From contig JAMAHW010000007.1 of NCBI GenBank assembly GCA_023627715.1, forward strand, positions 677,042 to 741,041: DNA of 64,000 nucleotides. Direction: 5' to 3'. This stretch comes from Periconia sp. R9002. Its lineage: Eukaryota > Ascomycota > Dothideomycetes > Pleosporales > Periconiaceae. Positions within the stretch are counted from its first letter, which is position 1, and each line of letters begins with the position of its first letter. Below, piece after piece: positions 9,538 to 54,451 of the stretch. The position numbers and the translations under genes were made by a program. The notes below the pieces were generated by a model that was not told where the DNA came from, ran no database searches, and worked only from the letters and a program-made list of their open reading frames with translations.

Positions 9538-10425
9538 ATGGCATCAACAGTCCCCTTCCTGACCGCCGTCGCCGCCCGTCGCTCCGCTTACGCCCTGGCT
9601 AAATCATCCCCCATCCCCAACTCGCGTATCGTCGAAATCGTGCACGCGGCCCTCGAGCACTGCCCGTCTCCTTTCAACGTGCGTAGCGCGCGCGCGGTTG
9701 TCATCTTTGGCGACTACCACAATCAGCTCTGGGAAGTAGCTTACGCCAATACGGAGAAGAACGACGGTGAGAAGGCCATCCAAGCCCTGGGGCCCAAGAT
9801 CAAGGCGTTCGGCGCGGCCTATGGATCGGTAAGTGGTTGTGTGAGAGAATTAACCTCGAACCTTCATACTCCTTTCAATTTCGATCATAATGTCATACTA
9901 GATGAACTTGGAATTTGAAGAAGAGAAAAAAAAATCCCCAAAAAAGAGATCAAAAATTCTGACAGACGGAAACAACAGGTCCTCTTCTTCGACGACCAAT
10001 CTGCCTACGAAAACATGCCCCCGCGCGCAAAGACTCTCCTCCTCTCCTCCAAAGCCTGGGAAGACCACTCCTCTGGCATGCATCAATTCACCGTCTGGAC
10101 GTCCTTGGAGGTATGTTAAACTCTAGGTACAGAGTCGTTTGGTACCGAGACACCACGTGGTGTGGCGTATTGAGACACTGATAATGTACTGTAACCACCC
10201 TAGTTACATTTAACTAACTTTGTACCCGCGATATAGGCCGAAGGGCTCGGCTGCAACCTGCAGCACTACCAGAACCACCTCGAGCAGCACGTCCAGGAGA
10301 CTTTCGACGTGCCCAAGGACTGGACGTTCAAGGCGCAGCTGGTGTTTGGTGAGCCGGTCGGCGGGTTGCCCGAGGCCAAGCCGAAGACGGGGCTGGAGCA
10401 GAGTTTGAAGGTTTTTGGGGCTTGA
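9538..10425 (+). CDS. Nitroreductase-family protein, Frm2/Hbn1-like
   Basis: Three exons: 9538-9828, 9979-10110, 10237-10425; all introns are phase 0 and the product is 203 residues, the usual length of this family. Members are small FMN- and NAD(P)H-dependent oxidoreductases; in yeast the homologues Frm2 and Hbn1 have been linked to fatty-acid signalling and oxidative stress. Visible signs are the N-terminal RRSAYAL with basic residues for FMN phosphate, FNVRSARAVVIFG near residue 45, HNQLWEV, and the C-terminal AEGLGCNLQHYQ that follows VLFFDDQ in exon 2. The second intron (10111-10236) is one of the introner-like elements described here and is needed to join LE to AEGLG. The first intron (150 bases) is unrelated to it. 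Cellular location is not obvious; there is no signal peptide. Confidence 0.88.
10111..10236 (+). mobile_element. Introner-like element, intron 2 of the nitroreductase gene
   Basis: 126 bases filling the intron exactly, from donor GTATGTTAAACTC to acceptor GCGATATAG. Just inside the ends lie GGTACAGAG and CTTTGTACC, a short terminal inverted repeat. The centre is the palindrome ACACCACGTGGTGT. A branch-point-like TTTAACTAAC lies about 23 bases before the acceptor. The copies at 50758-50883, 49005-49130 and 52638-52763 have the same length, and those at 50758 and 49005 closely match it. Confidence 0.9.
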
Positions 10426-37840: not shown

Positions 37841-37960
37841 GTAGGTACAAAGTCATCTTGAAGTCATCGAGATACCACGTAGCGTGGTGAATCGCAATAC
37901 TGATCAAGTCCTGTAACTACTACCCCAGTTATCTGTAGCTAACTTTGTACCCGATATATG
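37841..37960 (+). mobile_element. Decayed introner-like element in gene-free DNA
   Basis: Starts GTAGGTACAAAGTC and ends ACTTTGTACCCGATATATG, so the terminal inverted repeat GGTACAAAGT/ACTTTGTACC is perfect here, but the acceptor AG has become TG. The core ATACCACGTAGCGTGGTG is an imperfect form of the family palindrome. No exon is recognisable on either side. Confidence 0.75.
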
Positions 37961-50757: not shown

Positions 50758-50883
50758 GTATGTTGAACTCTAGGTACAGAGCGGTTTGTTATCAAGACAC
50801 TATGTAGTGTGGCGTATTGAGACACTGATTATGTATTATAACCACCCTAGTTACATTAAACTCACTTTGTAAATGCGATATAG
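50758..50883 (+). mobile_element. Introner-like element outside a recognised gene, intact splice sites
   Basis: 126 bases from GTATGTTGAACTC to GCGATATAG, very close to the nitroreductase copy at 10111-10236. Inner ends are GGTACAGAG and CTTTGTAAA; the core is ACACTATGTAGTGTGG. Donor, branch region and acceptor look functional, but no coding exon is recognisable around it. Confidence 0.88.
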
Positions 50884-51841: not shown

Positions 51842-54451
51842 TCAGTACGAACGCTTTGCAGGTGCTACACTTTTACACTCATTCTCATCCAACGTCTCCA
51901 TCTTCACACCTCTCGTTGCCCACCGAACTTGCTCTCCAACCCCTTTCTGCCACGTAAGACTGTGCTTCATCCACTCCTCGTCATTTCTTTCCTTGAAATC
52001 ATCTCTTGAATGCGCCCCTCTACTCTCTGTCCGCGTAAGTGCTGCTTTGCTTGTTTGCACTGCATTCGTAAGTAAGTTGCGTAGCTCGAGCGTTTCCACG
52101 AGATCACTATTCCAGATAAGCGATTTATCCGTTATTCTCAGATCCGTCTTGAAATTTGCTTCAATGGCAGCGAGTTGTGCATTGCCAGAGGCGAGAGAGT
52201 CGTGGATGCGGAAGACGGCGGTAGTGTTTTGCATTGTGCGCTGCATTTGGTCCCTCAATGCTGCTGTGGGGTGTTTTCCCTCTGATCGAAGGAACGTCGA
52301 AATTTCCTCGATGGAGTCGAGTCCAATATCGGATGGTGAGGCATTATGAGGTGCAGAAGGCGCGTGATTCTCTGCAATGTGTAATGCGGCTGCTCGGCCC
52401 TTCACCAATGTTCGTACAGTAGCCTTTTTGGATTTAGGAATTGGTCGGACTTACAAATACGACGATGTCGAGTAGTGAGTTTGCTCCAAGCCGATTTCCT
52501 CCGTGGACACTGACCTAAAATTCGCGGGTACGAAGTCAGTTTAACTCAACCAGGGGTAATACAGTGAGTGATGAATGTCTCAAAATGCTACACCACGTGG
52601 TGTCTTGATACTACTTTGTGGCTGGAAGAACGTACGCCTGTGTCATGGGTATAAAGTCAGCTTAACTTAACCAGGGGTGATATAATAAGTGATGAATGTC
52701 TTAATACACCACGCCACGTGGTGTCTCGATAACAAACGACTCTATACCTAGAGCTCAACTCACATGCTACCTCACCAGCTGCATATAAACCATCTACGAT
52801 GGTTTCTTCACCATTCTTCATATCCAAAACTTGGCCTTTGTAATTCCTTGCCAGAAAATTAGCTGCATACTCATCGACATTCATCCTCTCATCCTTGAAC
52901 TCACGTAGGCACACCACCCATACAATAATGGACTGTCGGCAATACCGGAATGGGCTCTTTCGTAATATCAATTCCAGCAAAAACTGAAGCAGTCTCCGCG
53001 ATACCCGGTAGTCGTTCCATGATAATATCCCTAGGTAAGTGCGACAATTGCAGGTGGATATGGTCAGCACGCGGTCCACATCCACGACCCTCCAGAATCT
53101 CGAGGTTCATGGAGCGCGACACAACATCTCGAGATGCAAGGTCCTTTGCTGTCGGTGCATAACGCTCCATGAAACGTTCGCCTTGCGCGTTGAGCAGGTA
53201 TCCGCCTTCGCCACGAGCTCCCTCTGTAATAAGAACCTAAGTTTACGTAAATGAAAGCGTACATTTCCAGGTTGAGGGAGTACGTACGCCTGCTCCATAG
53301 ATCCCCGAAGGATGGAATTGCACAAACTCCATATCTTGGAGGGGAAGACCGGCCCTGGAAACCATGGCATTTCCATCCCCAGTGCTGGTATGCGCGCTTG
53401 TAGCGCTGTAATATACTCGTCCGAATCCTTCCCTCGTCAGTGACGCAGTTCTTGGATGAAACAGTATAATTATTCCTACCACCGGTTGCGAGTACAGTAT
53501 TCCTAGCAAACATACGATGACACGTGCCATCTTCCATGTTCATCGCTGTAATACCCACACATTTCCCCCCTTCCATCATGAGATCCAGGGCGAAATACTC
53601 GATGAAAAACTGAACACCGTGCTTTAAGCTCTGTCCATAGAGCGTGTGCAGCATGGCATGTCCCGTCCGATCGGCTACGCAAGCCGTTCGATAGGCAAGT
53701 CCTTTTCCAAATTCCAATGACTGTCCACCGAGGGCACGTTGGTATATTTTTCCCTCTGCGGTCCTTGAAAAGGGCATGCCGTATTGCTCGAGCTCCACTA
53801 CGGCGGGGACTGCTGCTTTGGTCATATAGTGCACAGCGTCCTGATCCGCAAGCCAATCTATTTGCGGTCGGGGAATATCAAGTCAGTCGACTGTTTATGA
53901 GACTTCGCCCACTGGCAGCTGTTTGATAGTTGACTTCCAATGAACAAACGAGTAAGACATTACTCCCCGAGGAAACTAAATAATTACCAGAGCCCTTGAC
54001 CGTATCGTACATATGCCAGCGCCAATCATCCTCGGTCATGTTTCCTAACGCCGCATTGATACCGCCTTGTGCCGCCACAGTATGAGATCGTGTAGGGAAG
54101 AGTTTAGACACGCAGGCAGTGCGCAGTCCAGCTTCGGTGAGGCCCACGGCGGCGCGGAGACCCGCTCCGCCTGCACCCACGACAATGGCACTGTTGTGAA
54201 CGTTACATTATCGAAAGTAATCATTACAAAGTATGGGATAAAAGGGAAAAGGATGCAAAGAGGAACAGGGAGAATTACTCGTATTGGTGATCAACGACTT
54301 TGATATCCTTGATCTTTGGTGTGGTGGAGGTGGACGCCAAAGCACGTCGCCCCCAATGGGATGATAGTGACACCAAGCTTCTCCGTTTCTTGGATGAGAA
54401 GGCGCTACCCGAAGGCTGTTGTTGCAGTAGCGCACGTGTAAAGGGACGCAT
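51842..54451 (-). CDS. SDH1: Succinate dehydrogenase flavoprotein subunit
   Basis: Complex II subunit that oxidises succinate to fumarate in the mitochondrial matrix and carries covalent FAD. Exons in order: 54451-54279, 54190-53988, 53857-53480, 53427-53288, 53236-52905, 52846-52764, 52637-52636, 52514-52455, 52399-51842; 642 residues. The N-terminus is a basic mitochondrial presequence ([12 protein letters not shown]). FAD binding: [16 protein letters not shown] restored by the first splice, and SHTVAAQGG with the histidine for covalent FAD. Further landmarks: [72 protein letters not shown] and the C-terminal [18 protein letters not shown]. Between GEVA and VSVHGG lie two introner-like introns separated by only GC (52636-52637); those two bases are needed to complete the conserved cysteine codon and keep frame. 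Confidence 0.93.
52515..52635 (-). mobile_element. Introner-like element B, SDH1 intron 7
   Basis: 121 bases on the minus strand from GTACGTTCTTCC to GCGAATTTTAG. It has a perfect core palindrome ACACCACGTGGTGT and inner ends ACAAAGTAG and CTTCGTACCC. The subtype matches the dehydrogenase copy at 11017-11134. Confidence 0.9.
52638..52763 (-). mobile_element. Introner-like element A, SDH1 intron 6
   Basis: 126 bases on the minus strand from GTGAGTTGAGCTC to ATGACACAG, with inner ends GGTATAGAG and CTTTATACCC and core ACACCACGTGGCGTGG. Its left half is of the 126-base subtype and its right half resembles the other subtype, so it looks like a hybrid. Confidence 0.88.

Follow-up and report, generated by a model that had tools for sequence, protein, structure and literature searches.

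Can two mobile introns create an exon of two nucleotides? This question is raised by an SDH1-type gene in the window, by which we mean the whole 64,000-nucleotide stretch of DNA analysed here (C7:677042-741041 of a 42.9-Mb assembly). The gene lies on the minus strand at 51842–54451, and a conceptual GT-AG model with nine exons leads from start codon to stop codon (54451–51842). In this model, exon 6 (52764–52846) ends GAG GTA GCA T and is followed by intron A (52638–52763; 126 nt, GTGAGT...CACAG), a predicted exon 7 consisting of GC alone (52636–52637), intron B (52515–52635; 121 nt, GTACGT...TTTTAG) and exon 8 (52455–52514), which begins GTC AGT GTC CAC. The GC would supply the second and third base of a cysteine codon, TGC. 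Re-reading of the minus strand reproduced the coordinates and letters of A, GC and B in the first-pass annotation exactly. Both introns contain a CTGAC (52656–52660 in A, 52535–52539 in B), the adenine of which lies 19 nt and 21 nt, respectively, from the 3' splice site; going by the fungal consensus, we take these branch-point-like motifs to be the putative branch points.

The gene and its predicted two-base exon

The first-pass annotation had named the gene SDH1. An SDH flavoprotein gene it is: neither its frame of 642 amino acids nor any of the eight intron boundaries is disrupted, SDH flavoproteins of solved structure match residues 50–642 of the product, and homologues from the Pleosporales found in the homologue search are ~80% identical, the closest relative among the matches listed being that of Periconia macrospinosa (89% over 535 aa). 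The name itself, however, belongs to another locus. Two SDH1-type flavoprotein genes were found, at 51842–54451 of the window and at C82:174195-175492, and a 484-aa part of the latter is 93% identical to the proteins of Pyrenochaeta and Didymella, whereas the C7 product shares only 63% identity with it over 481 aa. By these sequence comparisons, the C82 gene is the canonical SDH1 and the C7 gene a second SDH1 paralogue. Judged by names among the matches listed, both types are present in Cucurbitaria berberidis, Paraphoma chrysanthemicola and Alternaria alternata. The top matches of both SDH1 proteins point to a pleosporalean fungus as the source of the genome. As a separate observation on the window, its last block at the contig end (60001–64000) has a GC content of 35%, compared with 43–58% in the remaining 4-kb blocks.

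Candidate GT/GC-AG introns with a minimum length of 40 nt were enumerated from the start of exon 6 to the end of exon 8. Exactly one of 20,357 two-intron combinations restored the motif A-C-V-S-V-H-G, namely A, the GC exon and B. The same enumeration yielded 33 single-intron solutions open to the true stop, none of which (0/33) kept the motif. Removal of A alone, removal of B alone and skipping of GC each resulted in a premature stop. Among the best 120 of 7,998 scored homologues, 117 have the motif here without gaps and with the ending VSVHG; minor replacements occur, for example serine in place of cysteine in three sequences. The remaining three listed homologues (P0041, P0044 and P0113) had no match to the motif pattern; P0041, an annotated SDH of Alternaria sp. 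RS040, reads EAAC and then GRAT without the segment equivalent to exon 8, perhaps owing to a gene-model error. The enumeration and the motif both indicate that the ultra-short exon is required for the frame and the conserved protein, as had been claimed for Ala-Cys-Val-Ser-Val-His from the first reading.

The reading that the first-pass annotation had set against its own was a single composite intron, with its donor GTAGCA at 52770 and its acceptor TTTTAG at 52515. When computed, this intron did leave a frame open to the true stop, encoding 639 aa, but the protein was without Val-Ala-Cys and did not keep the motif, so that residues retained by 117 of the 120 listed homologues would be removed. 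It would also bypass the donor GTGAGT at 52763 and read two complete introners as one intron. We consider such a composite intron quite unlikely. An error of sequencing or assembly as the source of GC appears very improbable, as the two letters are exactly the bases needed for the conserved codon and the ends of the flanking introners are complete.

The second paralogue bears on a further explanation, in which the C7 locus is decaying: its insertions would be spliced inefficiently, most transcripts would contain stops and the C82 gene would do the work. With a canonical SDH1 so close to those of Pyrenochaeta and Didymella in the same genome, faulty splicing of the C7 copy might be tolerated, and partial splicing or skipping of GC would produce the stops. 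Decay nevertheless has to be reconciled with the intact frame and intron boundaries, and with the retention of both SDH1 types in relatives, and we regard it as unlikely. On the sequence evidence, GC is most likely a functional two-nucleotide exon of mobile origin.

Two introners of different subfamilies

Genome searches with A and B (40 candidates scored for each) returned at least 43 and at least 41 matches, respectively. Near-identical copies thus recur across the genome, as expected of introners; among the matches listed, the nearest other copy was 94% identical over 111 nt for A and 93% over 121 nt for B. Patterns of the 3' ends, with up to three mismatches, identified 142 places of A/C type and 38 of B type, and a core pattern at the same tolerance gave 130 matches; the reversed-pattern controls gave none for any of these patterns. 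A second feature of introners is absence from the same position in a paralogue. Consistently, the C82 SDH1 reads GCA TGT GTA at the same codons and is uninterrupted there.

A and B are 82% identical to each other over 85 nt. A tree built from 80 copies placed A among the A-type and B among the B-type copies. Because each is nearer to copies elsewhere than to the other, and because they belong to different subfamilies, the two are, on sequence relationships, separate insertions from different subfamilies of one large introner family. This bears out the earlier proposal that one element was inserted two bases from another, with GC as a separate exon. We also considered a tandem duplication of one introner, suggested by the adjacency, shared orientation and related sequence of A and B; the mutual identity, lower than that to copies elsewhere, and the different clades led us to reject it as extremely improbable. 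Relative to the consensus of the respective subfamily, A carries changes at 12 of 126 sites (8 of them C-to-T or G-to-A) and B at 8 of 121 (3 of them C-to-T or G-to-A), a weak hint that A is the older insertion, read from a biased consensus set whose copies were chosen by likeness to A and B.

Folding stability, a feature reported for fungal ILEs, gave z scores of −2.54 for A, −0.53 for B and 0.09 for one C copy; of the three, A alone exceeded its shuffles in stability, and the whole segment of A, GC and B was not more stable than its shuffles (z −1.25). Subterminal inverted repeats in which 9 or more of 11 bases pair were present in 18/30 A, 13/30 B and 13/20 C copies, compared with 4–6% of shuffles.

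Further members of the family were observed in the window. A C-type introner (GTATGT...ATATAG) interrupts a plus-strand open frame at 10111–10236 on the plus strand. A B-type introner on the minus strand (11134–11025), 87% identical to B, has the 3' end CCCATTTTAAG in place of GCGAATTTTAG and a shifted acceptor. Other partial matches to A or B are found at 37842–37892, 38044–37979, 43317–43206, 49116–49064, 50762–50871 and 58842–58808. Beside A/C copies at L100 (C86), L101 (C106) and L102 (C117) we observed a related element type, with GTTCGTTCGT near its 5' part and GGTAGGTAGGTATAGT beyond its end, which is possibly another subfamily.

Target duplications and a proposed origin

The mode of insertion was examined by comparing the base triple that precedes the element body with the one that follows its final G, against 10,000 shuffles. 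An earlier test of 22 A and 23 B copies was later extended to 101 A/C copies, 87 of which were kept after dropping eight for their 5' end, one for its 3' end and five without AG. In the A type, the triple was identical in 29 of 50 copies, compared with 15.9 in shuffles (highest 25), and in the C type in 20 of 37, compared with 12.4 (highest 19); 21/50 and 17/37 copies, respectively, had no identical triple. The shuffles do not preserve relatedness between copies, and a sub-subfamily whose two ends share the same bases would pass for a duplication. Across the 87 copies, neighbouring or shifted registers showed no excess. Rarer triples were duplicated as well (6 TGC, 2 TGG and 1 TCA; 1 TAC and 2 ACA). 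For the C type taken separately, 20 copies gave no significant result (p 0.14 at the fourth position); 37 copies did, except at the last position of the triple considered by itself (p 0.056). A pooled test of A and C was set aside, being inflated by subfamily structure. The B type showed no duplication, with an identical triple in 1 of 23 copies compared with 2.2 in shuffles. Side by side with this, 22/23 B copies begin with GT, 20/23 are then followed by GT after the element, and 23/30 have G before the donor.

The AG of A/C copies is followed by G in 86 of 87 cases, so this base is probably part of the element. Taken together with the three-base duplication, this would mean that the donor is composed of the target G and the duplicated bases, whereas AG|G is brought by the element. 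The commonest 3' flank of the A type is GTGT (12/22 copies). As a side observation, A/C copies at L011-L038, L076-L095 and L103-L154 display 3-bp direct repeats, some of them outside open frames, unlike reported ascomycete introners.

Open frames suggest that the copies act as GT-AG introns in coding sequence, a third feature of introners. For A/C copies with a GT donor, the median open fraction across the spliced junction was 0.75 (n = 49), compared with 0.42 on the antisense strand; copies without GT reached 0.27 (n = 38; p 1.2e-5 against GT copies), this split by donor having been chosen after the first open-frame test. With the donor disregarded, 30 A copies showed no sense excess (16 vs 18 codons). 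B copies gave 35.5 codons sense and 21 antisense. The copies without GT still had an identical triple in 19 of 38 cases, which speaks for movement as DNA.

We then asked how often introners lie this close together, using exact patterns without mismatch; the counts are therefore lower bounds, and B-to-B pairs are covered only through the any-to-B pattern. Pairs of any element with B occurred genome-wide at the SDH1 locus only. The any-to-A pattern matched at one place, on C35, with no second introner upstream in the 1,014 bases examined; exact patterns for TATAG-to-B and B-to-A pairs found none. Pairs between A/C elements were matched at no fewer than six places. Two of these are head-to-tail A/C pairs whose members abut without an intervening exonic base: two copies on C117 (L102), and a pair on C1 (L096, C1:769300-770200) in which the second copy is apparently interrupted after its 5' end. 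Copies on C86 and C106 lie ~20 nt from a degenerate related element, and those on C2 and C39 had no second copy within the 200 bases examined. Uniform placement of 180 copies predicts ~0.001 same-strand pairs within 2 nt, a figure that is post hoc and ignores target preference. Adjacency of introners may be favoured, for example if inserts are left with a GT target next to them. Elsewhere, one A/C-type and one B-type introner were seen 298 nt apart in one apparent gene (L075, C5:15900-17300).

For the SDH1 locus, we propose that the introners were probably inserted at the two GTs of one GTGT and that GC is kept after sequential splicing. The target would have been the GTGT within the exon codons GCA TGT GTC AGT, whose two GTs are two bases apart; GCA followed by Cys-Val as TGT GTC gives GCATGTGTC. 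An A-type element would duplicate the 3-bp target TGT, take its donor from the target G and the duplication, and bring its own AG acceptor; a B-type element, with its own donor and acceptor, would enter in front of the second GT. With the first GT taken by A and the second by B, a GT exon would be left, and a synonymous T-to-C substitution within the cysteine codon would turn it into GC. The site does not record which element came first, as either order would give the same final sequence. In splicing, each short intron would be recognised as an intron, and A and B would be excised successively, whichever goes first, with GC retained. As two bases separate the acceptor of A from the donor of B, simultaneous recognition is unlikely and stepwise removal is expected.

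Several points count against this proposal. A is flanked today by TGA before and CGT after, each one change from TGT, and no identical duplication is left, as in the 21 A-type and 17 C-type copies without an identical triple. B has the unusual C before its donor, where G is the rule. With a canonical paralogue present, a copy that is non-functional or spliced poorly could be tolerated.

More broadly, we lean slightly towards the view that the A/C introners are short DNA transposons and not reverse-spliced introns. Such elements would duplicate 3 bp (mostly TGT or TAT), form the donor GTRNGT from the target G and the duplication, carry AG|G, leave a GT target beside the insert and pile up back to back; the two-nucleotide exon of SDH1 would then comprise one element base and one base of duplicated target. 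If this is true, SDH1 shows a mobile intron pair creating a two-nucleotide exon inside a coding exon. The duplications are also relevant to the question of whether DNA transposition or reverse splicing moves fungal introners, and suggest that both modes may operate in related subfamilies of one genome.

Comparison with known systems

The literature searched, in which few subscription journals were covered, nowhere described a tiny exon that two introners had generated; phrase searches for two-nucleotide exons found nothing on point, and no paper combined Alternaria, introners and Pleosporales. One candidate that seemed relevant by its title (PMC11889510) was discarded, as it concerns a ribosomal RNA intron.

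Introner-like elements of Dothideomycetes (PMC4457414) and introners at large (PMC9860276) are likewise multi-copy, near-identical introns in genes, as far as the accessible text goes. In Passalora, two of them occur in one gene, the pairs described being 145–626 bp apart (PMC4457414), whereas A and B are separated by two bases. Ascomycete introner families are stated in the available part of PMC9860276 to be without TIRs or TSDs; the 3-bp duplications of the A/C types are at odds with this statement, and the B type shows none. Stwintrons, according to the accessible portions of PMC5639578, PMC6616335, PMC8469720 and PMC9024468, are likewise adjacent fungal U2 introns removed consecutively, and some of their families multiply. 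In stwintrons, however, a splice motif of one member is split by the other intron; A and B are complete, with two exonic bases between them and no interrupted splice motif, and we rejected a stwintron reading on this ground. Recursive splicing at zero-nucleotide exons, named in the available text of PMC4674806, resembles the SDH1 case in stepwise removal and in overlapping acceptor and donor, but here the introns are short and the two bases would stay in the mRNA.

Exons of extreme shortness have precedents. The accessible text on the lipS genes of Dactylellina gives two 3-nt exons (PMC5639578). One-nucleotide exons are described in available passages on Arabidopsis APC11 (PMC4674806), where the authors favour combined intron definition and stepwise removal, and on plant VPS55 (PMC8831610). 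Both cases, like SDH1, involve two introns around an exon too short for exon definition; they are ancient, from plants and of one base, and mobile introns are not mentioned in those passages, whereas the present exon is fungal, has two bases and lies between introners. An ascomycete parallel is found in CYP621A of Fusarium, which has a one-nucleotide exon backed by public RNA reads; the available text calls it the first for a fungal gene and proposes rescue of a cryptic exon (PMC12940212). There, too, an internal coding exon of minimal length falls within a conserved motif and was deduced from that motif and the reading frame, but it has one base where SDH1 has two, and the accessible part of the paper describes no mobile flanking introns. 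This locus provides a natural substrate for testing whether adjacent introns with overlapping splice sites need stepwise removal, and it offers a direct route to the smallest exons, through two mobile introns at the two GTs of one target. One-base exons are thus already known from plants and Fusarium, and a two-nucleotide exon between two introners would represent a new form.
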